Assembly: GCA_910574475.1 (NCBI GenBank) | Contig: CAJTAT010000009.1 | Location: 62,001 to 126,000 of the forward strand | Length of the DNA: 64,000 nt | Reading direction: 5' to 3' | Origin: Clostridia bacterium | GTDB lineage: Bacteria > Bacillota > Clostridia > Lachnospirales > Lachnospiraceae | In this document: piece after piece, positions 42,293 to 53,994 of the stretch | How positions within the stretch are numbered: position 1 is the stretch's first letter | Layout of the letters: the number at the start of each line of letters is the position of its first letter | Position numbers and translations under genes: made by a program | The notes under the pieces: model-generated | What the model was told of the DNA's origin: nothing | The model's input: the letters and a program-made list of their open reading frames with translations, nothing else | Databases searched by the model: none

Positions 42293-42583
42293 ATGAAATT
42301 TTTACCTATAATAATATGCTACCTAACTTTAATCAATCTCCTGGCCTTCCTCCTCATGGCTATAGACAAATCCAAAGCACGCCACAGAAAATGGCGTATT
42401 GCCGAAAAAACTCTATTTCTCACCGCCATCCTGGGAGGAAGTATCGGATCCATCCTGGGCATGCAGCTATTTCGTCACAAGACAAAGCACACCTCCTTTG
42501 TCATCGGCATGCCCTGTATACTCATTTGCCAAATCCTTCTGGTTTTACTGTTTCTTCACTTTACAAATTCCGCACTATATTAA
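42293..42583 (+). CDS. DUF1294 family membrane protein
   Basis: 96 aa with two clear hydrophobic segments (about 4-24 and 63-90) and a basic middle, DKSKARHRKWRIAEKTL, typical of DUF1294, a family of small bacterial membrane proteins of unknown function. The motif GGSIGSILGMQLFRHKTKH is the family core. TTTGGAGG stands at good distance from ATG 42293. It is divergent from glyA and its end overlaps the end of the TauE gene by 23 bp in convergent orientation. Confidence 0.85.
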   Translation: MKFLPIIICYLTLINLLAFLLMAIDKSKARHRKWRIAEKTLFLTAILGGSIGSILGMQLFRHKTKHTSFVIGMPCILICQILLVLLFLHFTNSALY

Positions 42584-43343
42584 AAGCAGTCATTCCAAGA
42601 ACCCCTATCTGAACCATATTAAATGCCCATTCCACCTTTTTTTCCGAAAGTTTTTTATTACATACAGCTCCAAGATACCCTCCAAGTACAGCTCCGATTA
42701 CCATAACTGGCGCCATACTAAGATCAAGCTTTCCAAAATCTGATGCCACTGCCATGGTAAGGAGCTTGGATATTTGCGCAAACAGAATGGTAATCAAAGA
42801 ACACACTGCTGCAGTTTTTGTAGACATCGAATATAAATATATCAGTAAAGCCACATTAATAGGGCCGCCTCCTATCCCAAGGAAGGAGGAACAGAGCCCC
42901 AAAAAGCAGCCGACTAAGAGAGAGACGGGCGCCCCTGACAGATTCTTCCCTGGAATTTCTTCTTTTTTTCTCATGTAAAGGTACACAAGAAAAATCAAAA
43001 TTCCCAAGACCACATTTTGAATCACTAATACCTGCTTTTGAACATGAAAGGCTATCACTACTGCCTTCAAAATCTTCTGTCCCCAAAATCCTCCAAGTAC
43101 GGATCCGATAGCCAGTGGAACTCCCTGAGCAAAGGGAATTTCTGTTTTGGCAACTATTTGCTTTCCTATAGAAACAAGTGTCATGAAAAATACAGTGATT
43201 GCTGAAAGCCCTCCTATGGTCTCCACATCAAAATCATGGAGCACGTCCAGCAGGGGCTTTATGATGACGCCGCCGCCCATGCCGGTCATAGAACCGATTG
43301 TCGTCGCGCCAAAAGCAATGAAAAAATAAAGTAAATACCACAT
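42561..43343 (-). CDS. TauE/SafE family sulfite exporter-like permease
   Basis: 260 aa, about eight membrane helices, with the duplicated TauE motif: GMGGGVIIKPLLDVL near the start and GIGGGPINVALLIYL in the second half. Family members export sulfite, sulfoacetate or related anions. It lies next to the sulfatase-maturating enzyme and the sulfatase operon, so export of released sulfate or sulfite is plausible but unproven. AAGGAG precedes ATG 43343. Confidence 0.85.
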   Translation of the reverse strand: MWYLLYFFIAFGATTIGSMTGMGGGVIIKPLLDVLHDFDVETIGGLSAITVFFMTLVSIGKQIVAKTEIPFAQGVPLAIGSVLGGFWGQKILKAVVIAFHVQKQVLVIQNVVLGILIFLVYLYMRKKEEIPGKNLSGAPVSLLVGCFLGLCSSFLGIGGGPINVALLIYLYSMSTKTAAVCSLITILFAQISKLLTMAVASDFGKLDLSMAPVMVIGAVLGGYLGAVCNKKLSEKKVEWAFNMVQIGVLGMTAFNIVRNL

Positions 43344-43466
43344 ACAGAGATTTCTCCTTTTCTAAGTCTTTATAGTACCGCCACAGTCCTTTCCTTTCTC
43401 TGGGTTTCCTGTTATAATGATTTCAATAGCTTCTATGATAAAAAACATTGTAAGGAGGGAACTGAT

Positions 43467-44567
43467 TTGAAACGGCTTTCGCTCATGTTGAAACCTGCCT
43501 CTTCTTTGTGCAACATGCGCTGTCAATATTGTTTTTATTGTGATGTAAGTAGTCTGCGGGATCAGTCTGACTTTGGCATTATGACACCGGAAACGCGCAG
43601 GCTCATACTGGAGCATACTTTTTCCCAGTTAGCTCCAAAGGATTCCATTACGATTGCATTTCAAGGGGGAGAGCCTACCCTGGCTGGACTTGACTGGTTT
43701 GAACAGTTCACCGAGGAGGTTTCCCACCTGGCACAGCCTGGAATTCAAATCTCCTATGCCCTGCAGACGAATGGGACTTTGCTGGACGATGGGTGGCTTC
43801 GGTTTTTGAAAAAATATAGTTTTCTGGTGGGTCTGTCCCTGGACGGTCCCAGAGAATTTCATGATGCCAACCGTCTGGATACAGCCGGCAAGGGTACCTT
43901 CCACAGAATTATGACTGTGAAGGAAAATCTGGACCGTTTCCAGGTTCCCTACAATGTCCTGATGGTACTGACGAATTCTATGGCCCGCCATCCCCAGCAG
44001 GTGTGGAATTTTCTTGTTAAACAAAAGATTGCCTATGTTCAGTTTGTTCCCTGCCTCGCTCCTCTTGAATCTGAGAAGACGCCATTTGCTCTGACCCCAA
44101 AGCGATATGCTGACTTTTACACCCAGCTTTTTGATCTCTGGTATCCGCAAGTTTGTCAGGGGCGCTTCCGAAGTGTGAAGCTCTTTGACGATCTCCTGAA
44201 TCTTCTTGCTCTCGGAGAGGAGAGCGCCTGTGGGATTACGGGAAAATGCCGCGGCCAACTGATCGTGGAAGCAGACGGAAGTGTCTATCCCTGTGATTTC
44301 TATGCCCTGGATGAGTGGCGTCTTGGAAATCTCCGGGAAAATACCATTCGTGAAGTATATGAAGCGCCTCAAATGTCCCTTTTTTGTTCACGACCCAGAG
44401 AACTTCCCGAAGAATGTAAGTCCTGTCCTTATAACTCTGTCTGCGGCTGTGGCTGTCCCCGGATGTTCCGTGAGGTATTCCACTCGCCTCAGGACGGTTT
44501 CTGTGGACACCGTGCTTTTCTGGATTCTGCCATTACACGCTTACAAGGCCTTACCCGGCTTCTGTAA
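43467..44567 (+). CDS. anaerobic sulfatase-maturating enzyme (radical SAM, SPASM)
   Basis: 366 aa. Installs formylglycine in sulfatases without oxygen. The radical SAM motif is Cys15, Cys19, Cys22 (LCNMRCQYCFYC), AFQGGEPTL follows, and the SPASM region has the Cys clusters CGITGKC..., YPCDFY, and CKSCPYNSVCGCGCPRMF, binding two auxiliary clusters. The Asp in PCDFY is the proposed catalytic base. The start is TTG at 43467, 6 nt after AAGGAGGGA, a rare start that may limit expression. A TATAAT at 43413 lies upstream. It converges with the operon that encodes a Cys-type sulfatase, its likely client. Confidence 0.93.
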   Translation: MKRLSLMLKPASSLCNMRCQYCFYCDVSSLRDQSDFGIMTPETRRLILEHTFSQLAPKDSITIAFQGGEPTLAGLDWFEQFTEEVSHLAQPGIQISYALQTNGTLLDDGWLRFLKKYSFLVGLSLDGPREFHDANRLDTAGKGTFHRIMTVKENLDRFQVPYNVLMVLTNSMARHPQQVWNFLVKQKIAYVQFVPCLAPLESEKTPFALTPKRYADFYTQLFDLWYPQVCQGRFRSVKLFDDLLNLLALGEESACGITGKCRGQLIVEADGSVYPCDFYALDEWRLGNLRENTIREVYEAPQMSLFCSRPRELPEECKSCPYNSVCGCGCPRMFREVFHSPQDGFCGHRAFLDSAITRLQGLTRLL

Positions 44568-44580
44568 CCCATATGTGCAT

Positions 44581-44608
44581 AAAAAGGGCTGCCATAAATC
44601 TGCAGCCC
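44581..44608 (-). terminator. terminator of the sulfatase operon
   Basis: GGGCTGC (44586-44592) and GCAGCCC (44602-44608) form a stem; the minus strand continues TTTTTATG. It separates the operon from the convergent sulfatase-maturating enzyme. Confidence 0.75.
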
Positions 44609-44628
44609 CTTCCCTGTATTCGGAAAAT

Positions 44629-45984
44629 TTATGTATCCATTTCTTTCATAATCTCTTCTGTCAGCTCCTGTAAAAGCCCCAGATCCCACAGCATCTGCAG
44701 AATCGTATATCTGGCCCGTACCTCCTTGCAGTAGAGCAGTGTATCTTTTAAAAGCTGCCTGTCCACACCAATCTGCGAGGGACAGCAGGGGGCAGAAAGT
44801 TCTTCCATCAGCTTCGTAACTGTCTGGGAGGGTGGCAAACTTTCCAACAGTAACACCACTTTTTTCCAATTCTCTTCCAGCTTATTAATTCGTTTCAGGC
44901 GGCCTCCTGTCTCATTTTTCCCGGCATCCTGTTCCAGTTCAATTACACCTTGGGCTGCCGGACCGTATGCCCTTCTGATCTCTTGGCTCCACTGTGCAAA
45001 ATCATACTGTTCGGCTTCTCTGCGGGCTCTGTCAAAATCTATCTTATCCCGCTTTCTCAAGGCTTCTGTAAGCTTCAGGATTAGAATGGTTCCCACTCCC
45101 ACCTGATGGCCGTGAGGTGCAGGGCATCTACCTTGCTGCTCAAAAATCATTTCCCAGTAATGAGAAATATGATGCTCGCAGCCAGAGGCGGGCCTGGAAT
45201 TGCCCACCATGCTCATAGCCACGCCTGTGAACACAAGACCTTCCATAATATCACCCAGAACCTGAGGATCCCGCTCTTTAACGCTTCCTGCATTGTCCAG
45301 TACTTTCCTGGCACAAGTACTCACCATTTCCGTAATTGTCTCACAGTAGTATTCTCCATTGATAAGCCTGGACAGCTTCCAGTCACACAGACAGGTGAAT
45401 TTTCCAATCAGATCTCCAAGTCCTGCAGAGATCATAGAATAGGGAGCTCCTTTTAAAATCTCTGTATCTCCCACAATCAACTGAGGGGTTCGCACCTCAA
45501 AGGTTGTTTTAAGATGATTGACTGTGAGAGCGGAAATACTGGAGGCAAAGCCATCCATAGGAGCCGCAGTGGCCACAATGCAGTAGGGAAGCTGTAATTT
45601 AAAGCTAAAATAGCGGCACATATCATTAATAGATCCAGTTCCTACACCAACTACCACATCACAGTCTGAATTTTCATGAATCAGGAGTTCTCCAAGCGTG
45701 GACTCATCGTAAGATAGATGACTGATTACATGCATGTGTACCTCCAGGCCAGAGGACGTCAAAAGATCTCTCACCTTCTCCCCCGCAATTGAAACTGTCA
45801 CATTGTCACAGATGAGATAGATCTTTTTATATTGATTTTTCTTCAGCCATTCTGGCATCCGATCCAGCGCATCTTTGCTGATAAAAGCTGCTTTCAGAGC
45901 CGCCTTATGCATCTGTCCGCAGGAGCAGGAAAATGTCTGATTCAGACATTTGTCTAAAGTCAGTGTACTACTTAATTCTTGCAT
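44629..45984 (-). CDS. glycerol-1-phosphate dehydrogenase-like (AraM/EgsA family) enzyme
   Basis: 451 aa. Resembles the AraM/EgsA branch of iron/nickel polyol dehydrogenases: NAD site VVGVGTGSINDMCRY, PTAAPMDGFASS-like VATAAPMDGFASSISAL, and metal ligands in SAGLGDLIGK, SGCEHHISHYWE and PHGHQVGVGTIL. Known relatives reduce dihydroxyacetone phosphate to glycerol-1-phosphate. It has about 50-100 residues more at the C-terminus than compact members. In this operon the true substrate may be a polyol or sugar phosphate made by the adjacent kinase. ATG 45984 follows GGAGG and overlaps the kinase stop by 13 bp. Last gene of the operon. Confidence 0.8.
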   Translation of the reverse strand: MQELSSTLTLDKCLNQTFSCSCGQMHKAALKAAFISKDALDRMPEWLKKNQYKKIYLICDNVTVSIAGEKVRDLLTSSGLEVHMHVISHLSYDESTLGELLIHENSDCDVVVGVGTGSINDMCRYFSFKLQLPYCIVATAAPMDGFASSISALTVNHLKTTFEVRTPQLIVGDTEILKGAPYSMISAGLGDLIGKFTCLCDWKLSRLINGEYYCETITEMVSTCARKVLDNAGSVKERDPQVLGDIMEGLVFTGVAMSMVGNSRPASGCEHHISHYWEMIFEQQGRCPAPHGHQVGVGTILILKLTEALRKRDKIDFDRARREAEQYDFAQWSQEIRRAYGPAAQGVIELEQDAGKNETGGRLKRINKLEENWKKVVLLLESLPPSQTVTKLMEELSAPCCPSQIGVDRQLLKDTLLYCKEVRARYTILQMLWDLGLLQELTEEIMKEMDT

Positions 45985-46967
45985 TTTGAAACCTCCGTCT
46001 CTCCTTCTGTCTTTCTGTGAAGGCAGGGTACCTTTGCCAACCGGGCATAATCCTCCATAAAGCATCCCCGCAATTTATCTGAGGCCAGGATACCGCAATC
46101 CCAGAGCGCCTCCACACATCCGCCGTACACAGGCGGTGTATCTCCATAAATCATATGAGCTTGAGGAGAAGCCTTTCTCTGAATCGCTTCCACATAGTTG
46201 GGATACGCCTTCAGGATTCCCCCATTCATAACGACTGTAAAATCACTCTCAAAATATCTGGCGGCAGCAATGGTCAAATCTGCCAGGCTCTGGGCCCCTT
46301 TGTCCAGAAGTTCCATGCAGATTTCATCACCTGTACTGGCTCCTTCGAATACTACATGGGCTAAAGAGGCGATAAAGCTTCTTCCTCCCCTGTATATATC
46401 TTGAAATGCACTGTACAGATCTTTTCCCAATGCTTCGGCCATGGAGTCCGCCAGAACCGTATAGGCTCCCCGGCCGTCCAGGTAACGGTAGGCTGCCTTT
46501 AATCCATCCCGCGCCAGCTCAAATCCACTTCCACCTGTATCGATCAGGTATCCCAATCCGCCCACATCTCTGTGAGGCTTTCCCTCTCTTCGGATGAACA
46601 GTGAGGATCCTGTGCCGCAGACCATTCCACAGCCATCCACATGACCTAAAGCGCCAGAAATCATACTGAATCCATCCGCCTCAGCGCGTATCTTCCCCAG
46701 GGAAAATCGCTTGGACAGGCAGGTTTTTAGATCTACCTGAATCCTGTTCAATCCGGCAATCCCCGCATACAGCCCTGCCACTGGCCCTGGGGTCTTCTCT
46801 ATTAACTCCTCTACCACAGCGCAGACATGGGAGTAAGTATCCTCTGTCCCGTAATCCATAGGATTACATCCCCGTCTGACCGTATATTGTAAAATATGTC
46901 CGTTCTCATCGATCAGGACGGATTCTGTCTTCGTACCTCCGCCGTCTATGGCAATATAGTATTTCAT
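45972..46967 (-). CDS. BadF/BadG-type kinase, N-acetylglucosamine kinase-like
   Basis: 331 aa ASKHA-fold kinase: AIDGGGTKTESVLID (phosphate 1), CGTGSSLFIR, GYLIDTGGSGFELARDGLKAA (adenosine-type loops), VVMNGGIL near the end. Best-known relatives phosphorylate N-acetylglucosamine or glucosamine. It follows the transporter ATPases and overlaps the dehydrogenase, so it probably phosphorylates the imported and desulfated product. AAGGAG is 10 nt before ATG 46967. Confidence 0.85.
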   Translation of the reverse strand: MKYYIAIDGGGTKTESVLIDENGHILQYTVRRGCNPMDYGTEDTYSHVCAVVEELIEKTPGPVAGLYAGIAGLNRIQVDLKTCLSKRFSLGKIRAEADGFSMISGALGHVDGCGMVCGTGSSLFIRREGKPHRDVGGLGYLIDTGGSGFELARDGLKAAYRYLDGRGAYTVLADSMAEALGKDLYSAFQDIYRGGRSFIASLAHVVFEGASTGDEICMELLDKGAQSLADLTIAAARYFESDFTVVMNGGILKAYPNYVEAIQRKASPQAHMIYGDTPPVYGGCVEALWDCGILASDKLRGCFMEDYARLAKVPCLHRKTEGETEVSKCKN

Positions 46968-46996
46968 TGATGCACTACTCCTTTACTTCAAGCCCT

Positions 46997-47740
46997 TTAC
47001 CACCACTTAATCTTAGCTTCCACATAAGTTCGATACTCGATAAATTTGGAAGATGTAATATCCCGGGGCCTTGGCAGATCAAGCTCCAGACTTTCCTTCA
47101 CGCTTGCAGGCTTCTGGGACAAAATCAGCACCCGATCCGCAAGATAGCAGGCCTCCTCCACATTGTGGGTGATAAATACAATCGTACTCCCAAGCTCCTT
47201 CCAGAGGCGGATCACCTCGTCCTCCAGGTAGAATCTCGTTTTGATATCCATCTGCCCGTAGGGCTCATCCATCAAAAGCAAATCTGGCTTCAGGGCAAAT
47301 GCACGTCCAATCACAACCTTCTGTTCTGTGCTGGTAGATAGCTCATGAGGATAGGAATTGCGGTAGCGCACCAGTCCCATAAGGGACAAAATTTCCTCCG
47401 TTTTTTGGGAAATCTCTTCCTCAGGCCAATTTTTAAGTTCCATTCCAAACCGAATATTTTTCTCTACTGTCAGCCATGGCATGGCCGACGGTTCCTGAAA
47501 TACAAATGACAAGTTATGCTTTCTGGGATCCGCAGGCTCGCCGTCAATCAAAATTTCCCCAGATGTGGGCGGTATCAGGCAGGTCAATGTATTCAAAAAA
47601 GTTGTCTTCCCACAGCCAGTGGGGCCTACCACACATACAAACTCCCCACTTTTAATATCGAAAGTACAGTTTTTTAGCACCTCCAAATCCCCATAATTCT
47701 TGCAGAGGTTTTTAACCTCTACCTTTTTCTGTTCACTCAT
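46997..47740 (-). CDS. NitT/TauT-type ABC ATPase with degenerate signature motif
   Basis: 247 aa. Walker A GPTGCGKT (39-46), Q loop FVFQEPS, Walker B LLLMDEPYG with catalytic Glu159 and switch His192 (ITHNVEEA) are intact. The signature, normally LSGGQ, reads LSTST (134-138), so the composite ATP site that would use it should be defective. The other ATPase of the operon has the opposite pattern. Relatives import nitrate, sulfonates, thiamine precursors or bicarbonate. Starts 12 bp after that ATPase. Confidence 0.9.
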   Translation of the reverse strand: MSEQKKVEVKNLCKNYGDLEVLKNCTFDIKSGEFVCVVGPTGCGKTTFLNTLTCLIPPTSGEILIDGEPADPRKHNLSFVFQEPSAMPWLTVEKNIRFGMELKNWPEEEISQKTEEILSLMGLVRYRNSYPHELSTSTEQKVVIGRAFALKPDLLLMDEPYGQMDIKTRFYLEDEVIRLWKELGSTIVFITHNVEEACYLADRVLILSQKPASVKESLELDLPRPRDITSSKFIEYRTYVEAKIKWW

Positions 47741-47752
47741 GTCAAATCCCCC

Positions 47753-48523
47753 CTATTCCAAGGCCAGCTCTTCGTTGTCAGAAATCTCTGTTCGAATCCG
47801 CAAAAATTCAGGATCCACATAATTTCTGGGTCGGGACAGACAGCTCAGATCATATTCCTTTTTCACACGGGCCGGACGTTCCGTAAACTGTATAATCCGG
47901 TCTCCCAGATATACTGCCTCCTCGATATTATTCGTCACGAAGATGACCGTTCTCGTCTCCTGAGACCAGATCTTGAGAATCTCCTCCTGCATGGAATACC
48001 GGGTCTGTGCGTCCAGAGCGCCGAAGGGCTCATCCATGAGCAGAATTTCAGGGTTTGCCGCATAAGCCCTTGCAATTCCCACCCTCTGCTTCATACCTCC
48101 CGACAGAGCTTTGGGATAGGAATTTTCAAAACCTTTAAGCCCCACCAGTTCCAGATACTTTTGTGCTACTTTTCGCCGTTCCTCTTTGGGAACCCCTTTA
48201 TATTTCAAACCAATCTCTACATTTTCCATGGCTGTCTTCCACTCATACAGGCCAGTCCTTTGAAACACAAAAGCAATGGATGAGTTTGTCCCCGTAATTG
48301 GCTTTCCATCTAAAGTGATAGTACCTGAGGTGGCGTTTACCAGACCTGCAATAATGTTCAGCAGTACCGTTTTCCCGCATTGTCCGGGACCAAGAAGCAC
48401 GAGAAATTCATTCTTTCTTACATTGAGGGACACATCCTCAATGGCATCCATATCGCCTCTCGATGAGAAAAATGTCTTTGAAATGTGTGATGCTTCCAGT
48501 ATTACTTTCTTCTCCACGGACAC
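47753..48523 (-). CDS. NitT/TauT-type ABC ATPase lacking the switch histidine
   Basis: 256 aa. Walker A GPGQCGKT (45-52), Q loop FVFQRTG, perfect signature LSGGMKQRV (140-148), Walker B LLMDEPFGALD with Glu165. The switch His is replaced by Asn198 (FVTNNIEEA; usual FVTHDIDEA). Its own Walker site should hydrolyse ATP poorly, while its signature can serve the partner ATPase at 46997. Start is GTG at 48523 after GGAGAGGGG, overlapping the permease gene by 22 bp. Confidence 0.9.
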   Translation of the reverse strand: MSVEKKVILEASHISKTFFSSRGDMDAIEDVSLNVRKNEFLVLLGPGQCGKTVLLNIIAGLVNATSGTITLDGKPITGTNSSIAFVFQRTGLYEWKTAMENVEIGLKYKGVPKEERRKVAQKYLELVGLKGFENSYPKALSGGMKQRVGIARAYAANPEILLMDEPFGALDAQTRYSMQEEILKIWSQETRTVIFVTNNIEEAVYLGDRIIQFTERPARVKKEYDLSCLSRPRNYVDPEFLRIRTEISDNEELALE

Positions 48524-49302
48524 AGCCCCCTCTCCAAAAAGTCAAACCCATAGGCGAATACCGCCCCCAGCACGCCAATCATGAACATGCCCACAATGGC
48601 CAGTTCCAGGTCATTTGCATTGCTACCCTGCATGATCAAGTACCCGATTCCACTTCTGGCTGCCAGCATTTCTGAGGCAAGAACTACCATCCAGCCTCCT
48701 CCCACTGCCGTACGGATCCCTGCAAAGATTGCATTGAGAGAGCTGGGGAGCACCACGTCAAAAAGCATGTCCATACTTTTCGCTCCAAATACCTTTCCCA
48801 CATCAAAGTTAATCTCCGGCACCATAGTTACACCTGTATAGGAATTCACCACAATCGGCATAAACACGCCCATAATAATGATCATTATGCGGGAACCTTC
48901 TCCTGTTCCAAACCACAGAGTAAACAGGGGTACCCAGGCAATGGGAGGAACCGGCCGGATAACTTCAAACAAAGGCTTAAAAATTGCCCGGAAAATCTTG
49001 TTCCACCCCATAGCCACACCGAAGGGAACACCCACTCCAATGGAAATCAACAATGCTGTCAAAATACGCCTTACACTCATAAAGACATGGTAAATCATAG
49101 GTTTTTTCGCTATGGTTCCCGTCCAGATTGTAAAAAGCCTCTCCAATGCCTCATAGGGGGTCGGCAGCAATGTTCTGCCGCTGGCCGCTACTGCCTGCCA
49201 GAAAATCAAAAATGCAATCAGCAGAAGGCATGGGGATATATAATAGAAAATTTTATATGGAAGGCTGCGGTTCTCCATAAGAGGATTATTTTTTGTCTTC
49301 AT
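48502..49302 (-). CDS. NitT/TauT-type ABC transporter permease (second)
   Basis: 266 aa, about six helices, with the BPD_transp EAA loop in VFGAKSMDMLFDVVLPSSLNAIFAGIRTAVGGGW, typical of SsuC/TauC. Together with the first permease it probably forms a heterodimeric channel. ATG 49302 follows GGAGG by 8 nt and overlaps the first permease stop by 4 bp. Confidence 0.9.
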   Translation of the reverse strand: MKTKNNPLMENRSLPYKIFYYISPCLLLIAFLIFWQAVAASGRTLLPTPYEALERLFTIWTGTIAKKPMIYHVFMSVRRILTALLISIGVGVPFGVAMGWNKIFRAIFKPLFEVIRPVPPIAWVPLFTLWFGTGEGSRIMIIIMGVFMPIVVNSYTGVTMVPEINFDVGKVFGAKSMDMLFDVVLPSSLNAIFAGIRTAVGGGWMVVLASEMLAARSGIGYLIMQGSNANDLELAIVGMFMIGVLGAVFAYGFDFLERGLCPWRRK

Positions 49303-50138
49303 TTCTTCGGCCTCCATTTCAACACAATATTTTCCAGAAAAGAGATAATTCCTGAGGAAATGAATCCCATAATACCAATTACTACAATTCCGGCCATAAT
49401 AAGAGACACCTGTCCGAACATGCGGCCCATCTGAATCATATAGCCCAGTCCGCTGGCTGCAGCCAGCATTTCCGCCGCCACTACCGTTCCCCAGGCACTA
49501 CCCATTGCAACCTTTAAGCCTGCAAAAATCATTGGCATGGCTGACGGTATTCCCACTTTCAGGAAAATCTTAAAGCTTTTAGCTCCACATGTCTTAGCCA
49601 CATTGATATGTACCTGGGCTGTAGAGCGAATTCCCGTATACGTATTCAATACAATGGCCACAAAGCACCCCGAAAATATGATGACTGCCCGGGCCTCAGT
49701 CCCAATTCCCAGGAAAAGCAGTACAATAGGAATCCAGGCAAGGCTGGGGATCGGCCGCACAATCTCAAACAAAGGCCTAATAATCCTGTCGCACATTTTA
49801 TACCATCCCATAAATGCGCCAAGGGGGATCCCCACCAAAGCAGCCAAAAGAAATCCCAGCCACACTACAACAGCACTGGAATAAATGTGCTGCCAGAGAT
49901 ACCCTCCATCCGGCTGTTTGCTGGAGAATTTTTCAATAATCGTCTGCACGACTCCCAAAGGAGTGTCAAAAAACCGCGTACTCACCATTCCCAGAGTCAC
50001 CACTGTCTGCCAGATAAGCAATACCAAACACACACTACTGATACTGATGAGCAGATATTTCATTCTGGACCGTCTTATGGCACGAAGCTCCATTTCCCGT
50101 GCCTCCTGACGAATGTCTGCCAGAGATTTCTGTTCCAT
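49299..50138 (-). CDS. NitT/TauT-type ABC transporter permease (first)
   Basis: 279 aa, about six helices and a longer charged N-terminus (EQKSLADIRQEAREMELRAIRRSRMKY). EAA loop: CGAKSFKIFLKVGIPSAMPMIFAGLKVAMGSAW. Its similarity to the second permease shows duplication followed by divergence. ATG 50138 with GGGAGG upstream, 93 bp after the binding-protein gene. Confidence 0.9.
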   Translation of the reverse strand: MEQKSLADIRQEAREMELRAIRRSRMKYLLISISSVCLVLLIWQTVVTLGMVSTRFFDTPLGVVQTIIEKFSSKQPDGGYLWQHIYSSAVVVWLGFLLAALVGIPLGAFMGWYKMCDRIIRPLFEIVRPIPSLAWIPIVLLFLGIGTEARAVIIFSGCFVAIVLNTYTGIRSTAQVHINVAKTCGAKSFKIFLKVGIPSAMPMIFAGLKVAMGSAWGTVVAAEMLAAASGLGYMIQMGRMFGQVSLIMAGIVVIGIMGFISSGIISFLENIVLKWRPKK

Positions 50139-50231
50139 TCAGGCTGCCTCCCATTATCTTGATATAAATTCACTGCTCCTGGTCTCCAAGAGCAGTGATA
50201 TTTCATGTTCTTATCCGATCATTTCTTAGTT

Positions 50232-51398
50232 TTACTGAATATGATTGTTTGACTTATATAATTCAATTGCCTTTTCCAGATAAGTGGTATCCACTGCTTC
50301 CAGGACGGTGTCCTTTTGAGTTGCCTCATAGGAACCCATGGTTACATGGTAGTCAAAGAATTTTCCAAACTCTCTCTGGAGACCAGTCAGGCCGTCCTCT
50401 CCCACTTCGCACAATCCTTCATAGAAGGCCAGATCCCGAAAGCCTACAAGACCCATATTGGCTTTCGCTTCCTCCAGTGTTGTCTCTACACCAAACTCGT
50501 CCAGCATAACCTGTGAAAACCACTCGGCTGCCTGCTCCTGATTCGCCTCGTCATTCAGCCAAAGGAGAACTTCCAGGGCTCCTGCCAGGTATGTCACCAC
50601 AACATCCTCATTTTCCTCAAGGAACTCTTGATTGGCTATAATATTACCGGCCATTCCTGCATCCATTCCCTCCATAGTATGAACGCAGACATACGCATCG
50701 TCATTCTGGAGTGCTGTCGTATAAGTTGAGGATGGGAAGTATATATCTCCCTCTCCTGTAATAAATGCCTGATACCCTGTAGAAATATCCATATTAATAA
50801 TATTCACATCATCAGCCGTCAGCCCAAGCGCATCCAGAGTCAGCATCAAATCACAATAGTTCACTGTTCCAACGCCTACCAGTATATCTTTTCCCTTCCA
50901 ATTTTCAGCCGTTCCAAAGGTTCCTGGCACGCCGCAATCTCCCGCTGTGGCAATATCACTGTCCGCCCGGACAAAAGCCATATTAGAATAGTCATAGCCT
51001 GACAGGCCGATAATTTTCATATCATAATTCAAAATTCCATTGATAGCTGCTGTAGCTCCTATCCAGCCAACTTCCCAATCGCCGGATGGATTTGCCTCCA
51101 GCTGTGGCGGACCGGACACATAGTGAGTACGGGTAACATTTAATCCCATCTTTTCCCACGTGCCAAGCTGCTCACCTGCGATCAGTGTCACTGCTGTCTG
51201 AACCACATTCTGTCCGCTGGTGGGAAGATCCACAAGTTCCATAGGTGTATCCGACGTCTCCGTGTTCTCCTCCTGTTTTTCCTCTGGATTCTCCTGTACC
51301 TGTGTAACTGGTTCCTCTGAATCCTGTTTGCCTCCACATCCTGAAAGCAAACTAACTGTCATAACAACTGCCAACATTAATGCCCAATACCTTTTCAT
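50232..51398 (-). CDS. ABC transporter substrate-binding lipoprotein, SsuA/TauA-like
   Basis: 388 aa. Lipoprotein signal (lipobox LLSGC, Cys about 21), an acidic Glu/Gln/Thr linker, then a type II binding fold of the NMT1/SsuA class (GEQLGTWEKMGLNVTRTHYVSGPPQLEANPSGDWEVGWIGATAAING). This class binds small anions and ring compounds such as sulfonates, nitrate and thiamine precursors, not polysaccharides. AAGGAGG precedes ATG 51398, and a GCGGAACTT-like motif (CGGAACTT) lies just before it. Confidence 0.9.
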   Translation of the reverse strand: MKRYWALMLAVVMTVSLLSGCGGKQDSEEPVTQVQENPEEKQEENTETSDTPMELVDLPTSGQNVVQTAVTLIAGEQLGTWEKMGLNVTRTHYVSGPPQLEANPSGDWEVGWIGATAAINGILNYDMKIIGLSGYDYSNMAFVRADSDIATAGDCGVPGTFGTAENWKGKDILVGVGTVNYCDLMLTLDALGLTADDVNIINMDISTGYQAFITGEGDIYFPSSTYTTALQNDDAYVCVHTMEGMDAGMAGNIIANQEFLEENEDVVVTYLAGALEVLLWLNDEANQEQAAEWFSQVMLDEFGVETTLEEAKANMGLVGFRDLAFYEGLCEVGEDGLTGLQREFGKFFDYHVTMGSYEATQKDTVLEAVDTTYLEKAIELYKSNNHIQ

Positions 51399-51484
51399 TC
51401 CTTTTACTTCCTCCTTAAGTTCCGATGTTTCTTATTTTTGCTGTACAACCATATATGCAAAACGAAATTCCCTCTCGTTTTGTT

Positions 51485-52912
51485 TCAATCTAAATCTATC
51501 CGGTATCCCGGAGGAATTGCCGCCTTTTCCTCCTGGTGACGCATCGTGTGATCCATTCTCCCCGGATAATGAGGATGGGTCTTTGTATACTTCTCGTAAG
51601 TCTTACTTCCTTTTGCCTTGTTCCGATCCTGACTGCGGTACTCATCCACCAGTTCTTTCATCACCAAAGTGTCCGCATTTTCTGGGGAATAGGTATCCCG
51701 GACCTCGGGAATCTGTTCAAAAAAGTAGTATCTCTTCTCACAGGCTTTATATACCAGCTTCCGGGAGCCATCTGTCACCATATAGGTTCCGTCCTCTCCA
51801 CAGCCATGCTGGGAATACACATAGTCGTGCTTATCTCCTCCAAACAAATTCACTCCATCGTAGGTATCTTCCTTCCAGAAGACCCCTGCATAATTCAAAA
51901 GTGTGGGAGCCACATCCACCAGAGAGCAAACATCTTTCCTCACCCCTGGTTTTTGACCAGGACAGCGAATCATGAAGGGAATGTGACAAGAAGAATCTAC
52001 CATAGATCTTTTTCCGATGGCTTCATAGTCTCCCATCATATCCCCGTGATCGCTGGTAAATAAAACAAGAGTGTCTTCGTACATTCCTTTATCCTTCAAT
52101 GCCTGAACAATTCGTCCTACCTGGTAATCCACAAAAGATACACATGCATAGTAATAATTCTTCATTCGCAGCAGATCCTGCCTGCTAATCATAAGGCGGC
52201 TGCAGGAGCACCGTTCTCCAATGAGGTTTCGAAAGGTTTCCAGATCCTTCTCTCCTGGACAGAAGGGTCCCTCTGGATCCTCCCGATACAGTTTGTTCCA
52301 GGGCGCCGGCGGCGCAAAGGGTGGATGCGGATGAATAAAGGAGGCCATCAAAAGCATCGGTTTGTCTGAATCATACTCTTTGATATAATTTACACTGTGA
52401 TCTCCCACCCACTGTGTGGGATGTGCCTTTGGCGGAAGTTGGGATATCTGAGGAACGTAGTACATCTCACTGCGCATCCCGTGATAGTCAAAAACCCATG
52501 GATAATTCTCCTGTATAAACTTGGTATAATCATCCTCCGGGGCAGACAACTCCTCCTGTGTATATCTTTTTCCAAAGCCCATGCTTCCATACGGGTCTTT
52601 CAAATGATGCATTTTCCCTACACAGCAACTCTCATAACCCGCCTCTGTCAGTGCAGAGTAGAATCCTTCTCCCTCATAGGAGTTCTCTGCATTGTTATTA
52701 TTACAGCCTGTGCGGTTGGGATACTGGCCCGAAAACATACACAGCCTGGCCGGCACACAAACTGGCGAAGGGGTGATGCAATTGTCAAAAATGACTGACT
52801 CTTCTGCCAGGCGATCCAAATTGGGAGTCTGGATATACTCATTCCCAAAAGCGCCTATCGTGTCTTTTCTTTGTTGATCCGTAAATAAAATCAAAATATG
52901 TTTTTTATTCAT
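51485..52912 (-). CDS. cytosolic Cys-type sulfatase
   Basis: 475 aa arylsulfatase/choline-sulfatase-like enzyme. Catalytic Cys52 sits in SPVCVPARLCMFSG (motif CxPxR), which must be converted to formylglycine; metal ligands are in ILFTDQQRKDT, and VLFTSDHGDMMGD and SQHGCG supply others. There is no signal peptide, so it acts in the cytoplasm on an imported sulfate ester and needs the maturating enzyme at 43467. ATG 52912 has only a weak ribosome site (AAGAGAG). First gene of the operon, with promoter 52977-53004. Confidence 0.9.
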   Translation of the reverse strand: MNKKHILILFTDQQRKDTIGAFGNEYIQTPNLDRLAEESVIFDNCITPSPVCVPARLCMFSGQYPNRTGCNNNNAENSYEGEGFYSALTEAGYESCCVGKMHHLKDPYGSMGFGKRYTQEELSAPEDDYTKFIQENYPWVFDYHGMRSEMYYVPQISQLPPKAHPTQWVGDHSVNYIKEYDSDKPMLLMASFIHPHPPFAPPAPWNKLYREDPEGPFCPGEKDLETFRNLIGERCSCSRLMISRQDLLRMKNYYYACVSFVDYQVGRIVQALKDKGMYEDTLVLFTSDHGDMMGDYEAIGKRSMVDSSCHIPFMIRCPGQKPGVRKDVCSLVDVAPTLLNYAGVFWKEDTYDGVNLFGGDKHDYVYSQHGCGEDGTYMVTDGSRKLVYKACEKRYYFFEQIPEVRDTYSPENADTLVMKELVDEYRSQDRNKAKGSKTYEKYTKTHPHYPGRMDHTMRHQEEKAAIPPGYRIDLD

Positions 52913-52976
52913 TTCTGTCACTCTCTTACGGCTTTTATTGTTTTTCAAAACTTATTTCTTTTGTTTCGATAGTTTT

Positions 52977-53004
52977 ATTTTATCATATCTATCATTCATG
53001 TCAA
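52977..53004 (-). promoter_or_regulatory. sulfatase operon promoter
   Basis: TTGACA (53004-52999), 16-bp spacer, TAAAAT (52982-52977). The nearby sequences TTTCGATAGTTTTAT (from about 52964) and TTTCGATACTGTTTTG (from about 53066) are similar direct repeats that flank the promoter and could be DeoR operators. A dyad AAAACAG/CTGTTTT lies at 53054-53080. Confidence 0.65.
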
Positions 53005-53126
53005 TAAGGCATATCGCACAGATTTTACTTACACTTTTTGTGAAAATTCGCCTAAAACAGCTTTTTTTCGATACTGTTTTGTCAATTTCGTCCAAATATC
53101 ACCTCTGTTTTTAAAATTTAACACAT

Positions 53127-53152
53127 AAAAAAAGAGGACGCCCCGCGTCCTC
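53127..53152 (-). terminator. DeoR gene terminator
   Basis: GAGGACGC, loop of 3, GCGTCCTC; the minus strand then reads TTTTTTT. It ends the DeoR transcript before the sulfatase promoter. Confidence 0.9.
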
Positions 53153-53183
53153 TCATGCACCAAAAAGTTGTGTTTCAAAAGTT

Positions 53184-53936
53184 TTATAATATCTCTATCT
53201 TCTTTTTTGCAAGTTTTTCTACAATCTCCGACTCCAGCATATCATCCGTAACAAGCACATCCACGGCCTCCAGAGGCACTTTCTGGGGCATTAATGCATA
53301 ATTTACCTTCGAAGAATCCATCAGCATCACTACTTTATCTGAATTCCTGATAACAGTTGAAATAGCCGCTGCTGTCATTTCTGAAAAATAAGAAAAGCCA
53401 TAGTCGGGGTGAAACCCTGGTGTTCCCAGAAAAGAAATGTTAAAATGCATTTCCTCTAACTGCTTCAACACAGCCAATCCTTCAATCCGCATGGTATTCA
53501 TATCCACTTCTCCTCCCAGAACCTGAACAGTCAGATCGATTCTCTTGGGAAAGTTGATGGCTGTATACAAGCCGTCGGAAAAGACACACATAGGAATAGG
53601 AGGGAGGCGTTTGGCCAGCTCCGCACAGGTACTGCCTGCTGTGATAAAAACAGAGGTGTTTGGCTGAATCAGCTCTGCTGCCTTTGTGGCAATGATTCCC
53701 TTCTCCGTCTGATGGATGCTTGAACGGTACACAAAGTTCATGGTCTGGGGCAGTGCCTTCGCTCCTCCGTGAATACGGATGATCTGCTGTGTCTCGTCCA
53801 GATACTGCAGATCCTTACGAAGCGTAACTTCGGACACGCCCGGAAAACATTCTTTTAACTGTGTGAAATTTACAGAACCATTCTGATTCACCATATCACA
53901 GATTGCCTGACGCCGTTTTCCGATATTGCGAGCCAA
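53184..53936 (-). CDS. DeoR/GlpR family sugar-phosphate-responsive regulator
   Basis: About 250 aa. N-terminal winged helix (RRQAICDMVNQNGSVNFTQLKECF, SEVTLRKDLQYLDETQQIIRIHGGA) and a C-terminal sensor of the sugar-phosphate isomerase-like fold (FITAGSTCAELAKRL, SDGLYTAINF, LGGEVD, FLGTPGFHPDYGFSY, MDSSKVN). DeoR members usually repress sugar or polyol catabolism and respond to a phosphorylated intermediate, which fits a kinase in the adjacent operon. Start is probably TTG 53936 (GAGAGG spaced well); GTG 53945 is too close to the ribosome site. Confidence 0.9.
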   Translation of the reverse strand: MARNIGKRRQAICDMVNQNGSVNFTQLKECFPGVSEVTLRKDLQYLDETQQIIRIHGGAKALPQTMNFVYRSSIHQTEKGIIATKAAELIQPNTSVFITAGSTCAELAKRLPPIPMCVFSDGLYTAINFPKRIDLTVQVLGGEVDMNTMRIEGLAVLKQLEEMHFNISFLGTPGFHPDYGFSYFSEMTAAAISTVIRNSDKVVMLMDSSKVNYALMPQKVPLEAVDVLVTDDMLESEIVEKLAKKKIEIL

Positions 53937-53994
53937 TTTTCTCACCTCTCCATCATTTTAACTTCCATTTTTATCACTGTTACACAGATATAAC

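Follow-up and report, generated by a model that had tools for sequence, protein, structure and literature searches.

Three candidate operon types for small sulfate esters in Clostridia that share an AraM-like dehydrogenase

The locus

The 64,000-nucleotide stretch analysed here, which we call the window, lies on contig C9 of a Lachnospiraceae genome (G000, 4.46 Mb; assembly 95% complete) and carries an operon that joins a sulfatase to a transport system, a kinase and an AraM-like dehydrogenase (Table 1). An initial annotation, made without database searches, had listed these genes, and profile matches from Pfam and NCBIfam agree with its inventory throughout, every gene lying at the place and belonging to the family that had been claimed. 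We consider it reasonably probable that the operon represents one of three parallel types that serve the catabolism of small sulfate esters in Clostridia, known for the most part from metagenome-assembled genomes (MAGs) of the gut, and whose substrates would yield a common or nearly common alcohol.

Table 1. Genes and sequence elements of the window operon and its surroundings
Feature	Position	Strand	Remarks
DeoR-family regulator	53184..53945	-	DeoR C-terminal and helix-turn-helix domains; related DeoR genes in type B and C clusters
Terminator-like hairpin, gap between DeoR and operon	53132..53154	-	10 pairs, T-run
Promoter-like site TTGACA-16-TAAAAT, extended -10	52977..53004	-	consensus match only
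Type B cytoplasmic Cys-type sulfatase (predicted), formylglycine motif CVPAR	51485..52948	-	likely start ATG 52912; Sulfatase Pfam 3e-50
SsuA-like substrate-binding lipoprotein, lipobox LLSGC	50232..51398	-	SsuA_fam 7.6e-17; no Pfam match
13-bp hairpin, gap between binding-protein and first permease genes	50170..50198	-	stable, z -4.4
ABC permease 1	49299..50138	-	BPD permease
ABC permease 2, TauC/SsuC type	48502..49317	-	BPD permease
ABC ATPase 1	47753..48523	-	signature LSGGM canonical, Asn for H-loop His, Walker A GPGQCGKT
ABC ATPase 2	46997..47740	-	H-loop His present, signature LSTST degenerate
BadF/NagK-like (ASKHA) kinase	45972..46967	-	BadF Pfam 7e-23
AraM-like dehydrogenase, Fe-ADH_2/glycerol-1-phosphate dehydrogenase family	44629..46065	-	likely start ATG 45984; Fe-ADH_2 2e-31; N-terminal CxCGxxH
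Anaerobic sulfatase-maturating radical SAM enzyme, convergent with operon	43467..44567	+	Pfam and NCBIfam, 7e-107
TauE/SafE-family anion exporter	42561..43343	-	Pfam 7e-36

A recurrent gene set

The gene set is not a chance assembly, because the same genome holds a second, parallel operon and because the only two sulfatases that a PF00884 scan finds in the assembly lie one in each of the two. The second cluster (L034, contig C5) consists of a DeoR regulator, an SsuA-like protein, two permeases, two ATPases, a different sulfatase, an AraM-like protein with 69% identity to that of the window, a BadF kinase and a TauE protein. Under random placement, simple arithmetic (32 kb of 4,459 kb, squared) puts the probability that both sulfatases lie within 8 kb of the two AraM-like genes at about 5e-5.

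Conservation in other genomes, on which the initial annotation had made its proposal depend, was found as well: a core of binding protein, two permeases, two ATPases, sulfatase, kinase and AraM-like dehydrogenase is complete in all eight clusters compared, which come from five genomes and two families. Besides the window and L034, these are L035 (G1051, from the window's genus), L047 (G689, a Dysosmobacter MAG), L204, L205 and L206 (G1061, from the genus of G689) and L209 (G694, an Oscillibacter MAG and also the genome of L053). Stretches that turned out to be the same DNA (L202, L203, L181 and L210 as L035, L044, L037 and L043, respectively) were each counted once. Permeases that seemed to be missing from L047 and L204 are both present, their absence having been an artefact of open reading frame picking. 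At positions 6998-8354 of L206 the AraM gene is broken into two frames that overlap; where it can be aligned it matches the nearby copy of L205 exactly, and the split reflects either decay or an assembly error.

A scan of contigs with the AraM-like protein gave 19 loci, all of them labelled as Clostridia and mostly from MAGs. AraM matches occur in 127 of 299 genomes drawn from the window's family (any match, E<=0.001), in 93 of 391 drawn from its class (E<=1e-60) and in 3 of 16 from its genus (E<=1e-100), as well as in 3 of 350 drawn from the family of G689 and 11 of 86 from its genus (both E<=1e-140). The close relatives of the window protein, which form one starred clade of 21 rows in an AraM tree of 57 rows, are patchily distributed. 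Rows of this clade that bear a sulfatase fall on at least two separate branches, and L051 stands apart in an unresolved fork.

Three types of cluster and one dehydrogenase

The eight clusters fall into three types, defined from their sulfatases, with the window in type B, L034 in type C, and L035 and L047 in type A. One genome, G1061, carries all three as separate operons, A and B being placed side by side. Sulfatases are 67-79% identical within a type (mean 73.9) and 25-28% between types (mean 26.8), and binding proteins behave alike with 62-77% (mean 69.0) and 22-32% (mean 27.1). Mean identities of the permeases are 79% within and 44-46% between types, those of the ATPases 81-84% and 56-60%.

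The AraM-like dehydrogenase is the sole core gene that ignores type and groups by lineage, as its identity amounts to 57-73% within a type (mean 62.5) and 56-100% between types (mean 66.5). Over their aligned part, the AraM genes of the type A and type B operons of G1061 do not differ, and in the AraM tree a single clade with a support of 100/100 unites those of the window (B), L034 (C) and L035 (A). An approximately unbiased (AU) test on 18 AraM rows rejected a clade of the three type C rows (p 3.8e-7) and one of the three type A rows (p 3.3e-5); it was run after earlier AraM trees had been seen, and the trees were built without L206 (incomplete, and identical to L205 over the aligned part) and without the long branch of L041_6116. 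The natural reading of this pattern is that AraM copies can be swapped between types, their substrate being shared. Judged by these sequence comparisons, the breakdown of three sulfate esters, or of a single compound bearing several sulfate groups, probably leads to one and the same alcohol, which would be phosphorylated and oxidised.

Accessory genes follow other patterns. TauE, compared in four clusters, is mixed, with 55.8% identity for one within-type pair and 39.5% between types, yet 60% between the window (B) and L035 (A). The initial annotation had counted a DeoR regulator among the parts of the system, which does not hold in general: DeoR is found in all five clusters of types B and C, and a LysR regulator takes its place in all three of type A.

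Two loci from rabbit MAGs, L039 and L045, unite the types in one operon made up of TctC, TctB and TctA (assigned by Pfam for L039), an isomerase of the AP_endonuclease_2 type, consecutive genes for a type A, a type B and a type C sulfatase, and one AraM. Their sulfatases share 68-80% (A), 57-58% (B) and 71% (C) identity with those of the single clusters, and in L039 an ABC set lies on the far side of the gene for the sulfatase-maturating enzyme (maturase). A stretch of no more than 16 kb in a further genome, G692 (L051, L164), contains TctA/B/C, three sulfatases of which one is of type B, a pair of BadF kinases, TauE, AraM and a maturase. These merged, Tct-bearing operons therefore indicate that the transporter can change while the sulfatases and AraM stay. 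A 542-residue "TIM-barrel fusion" considered in L039 was discarded, because its frame is fortuitous and runs on into an ordinary isomerase-like gene, which TctA precedes. Separately, L168 (7998-12155) and L169 (5506-11824) combine a simpler SsuA-type importer of one permease and one ATPase with another sulfatase and a maturase; these sets carry no kinase or AraM labels, and L169 includes a TauE.

Proposed import and export

The lipoprotein had been described as SsuA-like, a label that depends on a subfamily match under its curated cut-off: it reaches 61.4 bits against TIGR01728, the SsuA-family sulfonate-binding protein, where the cut-off is 163.5. The two ATPases differ from each other in the same manner in 8/8 clusters (window 46997-48523, L034, L035, L047, L204, L205, L206, L209): ATPase 1 has the signature LSGGM and an asparagine replacing the H-loop histidine, and ATPase 2 keeps this histidine and has the signature LS(A/T/V)S(M/T). 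With head-to-tail pairing, such asymmetric motifs would therefore produce one consensus and one degenerate ATP site. A review of degenerate ATP sites (PMC7756269) deals with exporters.

The TauE/SafE protein passes its Pfam gathering score (124.5 bits, threshold 32.6). Sulfite, which the initial annotation had named as a possible exported ion, is not supported, as the sulfatase would free sulfate.

Importer and exporter both bear on the idea that the esters are taken up mainly for their sulfate, as happens in the sulfate-starvation systems of the AtsRBC/AtsK type. An SsuA-like importer would suit such scavenging, and the genome encodes CysD, CysNC and one more PF01507 protein (31 bits, Pfam cut-off 22.5) that could be a reductase. 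For this purpose neither a kinase nor a dehydrogenase would be needed, a TauE gene belongs to the cluster of both G000 operons, and the regulators are of the DeoR or LysR families, all of which makes sulfur scavenging a highly improbable role. AtsRBC/AtsK itself is the aliphatic sulfate-ester uptake system of Pseudomonas putida and resembles the present operons in its SsuA-family importer for sulfate esters and in desulfation inside the cell. It differs in that AtsK is an O2-dependent dioxygenase that supplies sulfur, whereas here anaerobes would employ a formylglycine-type sulfatase together with a kinase and a dehydrogenase.

The predicted sulfatase and its putative maturating enzyme

The motif CVPAR of the window sulfatase has the form C-x-P-x-R, and C64, P66, R68, K112, H114, H208, D300 and K313 (numbering of the open reading frame) are invariant in 10/10 aligned sulfatases. 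By motif and residues the window enzyme is a predicted formylglycine (type I, Cys-type) sulfatase. Desulfation in the cytoplasm, as initially proposed, also gains support from the sequence, for inspection and hydropathy of 14 rows reveal neither a signal-peptide-like N-terminus nor a hydrophobic leader, and the catalytic domain begins near the likely start codon. The convergent maturating enzyme is in place as well. It contains radical SAM and SPASM domains and scores 357.7 bits where the equivalog cut-off is 441, and 323.6 bits where a second cut-off is 349.45.

The nearest solved structures of type B are 7oz8 (175 bits), named a choline-sulfatase, and the choline sulfatases 6fny, 7pth and 6g5z (142-147 bits); the nearest solved relative of type A is 6hr5. 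Choline sulfate is used by way of the choline sulfatase BetC, and type B is choline-sulfatase-like in these matches and has no signal-peptide-like N-terminus. The operon differs from that route in having no choline oxidation genes, and the window enzyme reaches 195.9 bits against choline sulfatase TIGR03417, below the cut-off of 433.45.

Some of the structural matches point in another direction, namely that the sulfatase-like enzymes are phosphodiesterases or phosphonate monoester hydrolases acting on a polyol phosphodiester such as one derived from teichoic acid. The PDB matches include phosphonate monoester hydrolases (4upk and 2w8s, 103-108 bits); these enzymes too use formylglycine and share the D-H pair that type B has in common with choline sulfatases. 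Against this, the top-scoring matches bear the names of sulfatases, the importer belongs to the sulfonate/sulfate-ester type and TauE accompanies four of the eight clusters, and we consider a phosphodiester substrate very unlikely.

The kinase

The window kinase passes the gathering score of the BadF/BcrAD_BadFG family (81.9 bits, threshold 31.5). A search with this protein in eight genomes at E<=1e-15 gave nine matches in five of them, all in sulfatase/AraM clusters or in the related cluster of G692, and none in G1051, G682 and G687. In L035, the cluster of G1051, the kinase slot is occupied by a ribulokinase-family protein, which exceeds the cut-off of PRK04123 (544 bits, cut-off 428) and stays under that of TIGR01234 (510 bits, cut-off 583). 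L035 and L047 both belong to type A, with 70% identity between their binding proteins and 71% between their sulfatases, and they carry a ribulokinase-family kinase and a BadF kinase, respectively.

Two kinase subfamilies in one slot suggest a single small polyol or ketose as substrate, and the exchange in this type A cluster would favour such a compound. The proposed order of phosphorylation followed by oxidation likewise draws support from a kinase swap that occurs beside the same types of sulfatase, binding protein and AraM. The ribulokinase of Escherichia coli also phosphorylates ribitol and L-arabitol.

The AraM-like dehydrogenase

The nearest solved structure to the dehydrogenase is the glycerol-1-phosphate (G1P) dehydrogenase 9h4x (178 bits), which we take to be AraM of Bacillus subtilis. 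Four putative metal-site residues, D218, H298, H302 and H318, are invariant in 20/20 sequences and have counterparts in 9h4x, 3ce9 and 4rgq; the assignment of a site made of an aspartate and two histidines is presumed by analogy. In 56/57 relatives the motif C-x-C-x-x-x-H precedes the Fe-ADH_2 domain, outside the part that aligns to solved structures, and may form an extra metal site. AraM of B. subtilis is cited as a G1P dehydrogenase in PMC5059525 and PMC13400652.

Could the AraM-like protein be a true G1P dehydrogenase, which would turn glycerol sulfate into dihydroxyacetone phosphate in catabolism or provide G1P for ether lipids? The nearest structure and the aligned metal-site residues would agree with this, and the only enzymes that glycerol sulfate would require, namely sulfatase, kinase and dehydrogenase, are precisely the ones encoded in the operon. 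The protein reaches only 209.1 bits against NF002022, the NAD(P)-dependent G1P dehydrogenase, whose curated cut-off is 413, and the N-terminal motif has no place in the structure-aligned part. In addition, some wider relatives adjoin L-arabinose genes, and ribulokinase-family kinases usually act on C5 compounds. The ether-lipid version was rejected, since PcrB was not found in G000, the sole PF01884 match being short and inside the tryptophan synthase alpha subunit TrpA. On this evidence a true G1P dehydrogenase appears quite unlikely.

The same comparison extends to the known members of the family. B. subtilis AraM and the archaeal G1P dehydrogenases (9h4x, 4rgq, 5fb3) share the fold family and the putative metal-site residues with the present enzyme, which differs from them in its score below the G1P dehydrogenase cut-off, its N-terminal CxCGxxH and its setting in sulfatase and kinase operons of a genome lacking PcrB. 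Among distant AraM-like genes, one adjoins AraA, AraB and AraD (L116) and another AraD and an FGGY kinase (L140); these L-arabinose operons resemble ours in placing an AraM-like gene beside a ribulokinase-family or FGGY kinase, and differ in that the window and L034 operons have neither AraA nor AraD.

Genes of the AraM clade were also seen in other company. In L036, L040, L046 and L207 they occur with a TRAP transporter, a LacI regulator and a PHP hydrolase of the CehA/McbA type (by family for L036, by similarity for the others), where a different ester is possibly cleaved ahead of the same dehydrogenase. In L038, L044 and L052 they accompany a ribulokinase-like kinase and a UROD-family, corrinoid methyltransferase-like protein (by Pfam for L038 and L052, by similarity for L044), which possibly indicates an O-methylated substrate.

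A proposed pathway

Gene content, intact catalytic and metal motifs of sulfatase and dehydrogenase, N-termini that do not resemble signal peptides, conservation and modularity are features of the sequences themselves, and from them we infer each reaction, the order of the reactions, the shared alcohol, the role of TauE and the class of substrate. A small sulfate ester would be imported by the SsuA-like lipoprotein and a heterodimeric ABC importer of the NitT/TauT type. In the cytoplasm, a type-specific Cys-type sulfatase, matured by the anaerobic sulfatase-maturating enzyme, would free sulfate. What remains would be an alcohol that differs little or not at all among types A, B and C, with a polyol or ketose of small size (C3 to C6) as the likeliest candidate. 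This alcohol would be phosphorylated by the BadF-type kinase, or by a ribulokinase-family kinase in one type A cluster. The AraM-like, NAD(P)-dependent enzyme would then oxidise a carbinol group of the product, giving a ketose phosphate that enters central metabolism, while TauE would export surplus sulfate. The general scheme put forward in the initial annotation, with import, desulfation inside the cell and further conversion by kinase and dehydrogenase, is thereby supported as pathway logic and extended to three types with an AraM that is specific to lineage; the support does not reach to the substrate, the exported ion or the regulation.

Several observations weigh against this scheme. TauE and the maturase, which had been treated as fixed parts, are each present in 4/8 of the stretches examined, and the maturase, compared in four clusters, resembles AraM in not following type (38.5% identity for one within-type pair, 51.0% between types). 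A sulfatase lies nearby in at least 7 of the 21 AraM-clade rows (six within a limit of six genes, plus the window, where it is seven genes away; some contigs are short), and at most of these loci none is seen. AraM-like genes also stand beside HAD phosphatases (L041, L048), which would suit a reduction better than an oxidation. The merged operons of L039 and L045 contain no kinase, and no BadF match at E<=1e-15 occurs in the genome of either. BadF identity, 66.1% within types (5 pairs) and 45.2% between types (16 pairs), tracks cluster type over lineage; as the kinase follows type, the alcohols may differ between types and AraM may be broad.

Two further points on this side suit an amino sugar: the sole NCBIfam match of the BadF kinase is N-acetylglucosamine (GlcNAc) kinase (71.6 bits, cut-off 370), and the nearest structures of the type C sulfatase are the mucin-desulfating sulfatase 7p24 (188 bits) and the GlcNAc-6-sulfatase 5g2v (186 bits). 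Together with the gut habitat of the relatives, they speak for monosaccharide sulfates of mucin or glycosaminoglycan origin, GlcNAc-6-sulfate or galactose sulfates for instance, which would be processed by sugar-specific sulfatases and a BadF hexosamine or hexose kinase, with AraM engaged in a side reaction. The operons of the window and L034 have no NagA/NagB, glycosidase or lyase, and every gene in them is otherwise assigned; AraM is a fixed member in 8/8 clusters, the L035 kinase is a ribulokinase-family protein above its cut-off, and three unlike sugars would not obviously need a common dehydrogenase. We therefore regard monosaccharide sulfates as unlikely substrates and retain the route to a shared small polyol or ketose.

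Taken one step further, modules A, B and C may accept three regio- or stereoisomeric sulfate esters of one polyol, or a multiply sulfated polyol that is desulfated stepwise, and they would feed a single AraM-type polyol-phosphate dehydrogenase with a new substrate through importers with one consensus and one degenerate ATP site. This more specific version, which would amount to a so far undescribed route, is offered tentatively.

Relation to known sulfate-ester use

In its import, its desulfation within the cytoplasm and its export of sulfate, the proposed pathway is similar to known sulfate-ester use, and the dehydrogenase step is the most novel part. For the kinase/AraM ending and the three-way modular build, no described match was found among the open-licence papers listed, as judged from titles and abstract openings. 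The glycosaminoglycan sulfatase loci of Bacteroides likewise employ S1 sulfatases, which are matured by the anaerobic sulfatase-maturating enzyme.

Small sulfated molecules occur commonly in the gut. In PMC9067506, desulfation is described mainly for Bacteroides enzymes acting before uptake, after which unsulfated monomers enter the cytoplasm, and Firmicutes routes are less studied; in the operons described here, import would come first. If true, anaerobic breakdown in the cytoplasm, with the carbon used and the sulfate exported, would open a separate niche to Clostridia and could feed sulfate reducers. It would also assign a function to part of the large AraM-like family, whose nearest named relatives are G1P dehydrogenases. 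Three matched operons make the search for the substrate tractable, as a single alcohol should be consistent with all three binding proteins, all three sulfatases and both kinase subfamilies.

Transcription, start codons and further loci

The operon had been described as headed by a promoter. The site listed in Table 1 is the best match of the region and plausible as such; the region as a whole is not enriched, with 17 promoter-like matches as compared to 17.9 in shuffles. Since the 10-pair hairpin separates DeoR from the operon, DeoR is probably transcribed on its own, and the 13-bp hairpin is perhaps a partial terminator or an RNA stabiliser. A shared DeoR operator was considered because a pattern bearing TATCGAAA occurs twice upstream of the window operon. 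With up to two mismatches this pattern has four matches in the whole window where 1.24 are expected, and 4 of 100 shuffles reach four; the candidate was dropped, as TATCGAAA was not found on either strand between the DeoR and binding-protein genes of L034.

Two genes more likely begin inside their longest open reading frames, the sulfatase at ATG 52912 rather than TTG 52948 and the AraM-like protein, by comparison with L034, at the internal ATG 45984 rather than at 46065, because these starts fit the relatives better.

Elsewhere in the genome, on contig C6 (L175, 3861-13680), CysD and a bifunctional CysNC, which make 3'-phosphoadenosine-5'-phosphosulfate, are encoded next to an NKWYS capsule-type protein, a cytidylyltransferase-like protein and a weak radical SAM match. 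These genes perhaps serve the sulfation of a surface polymer.

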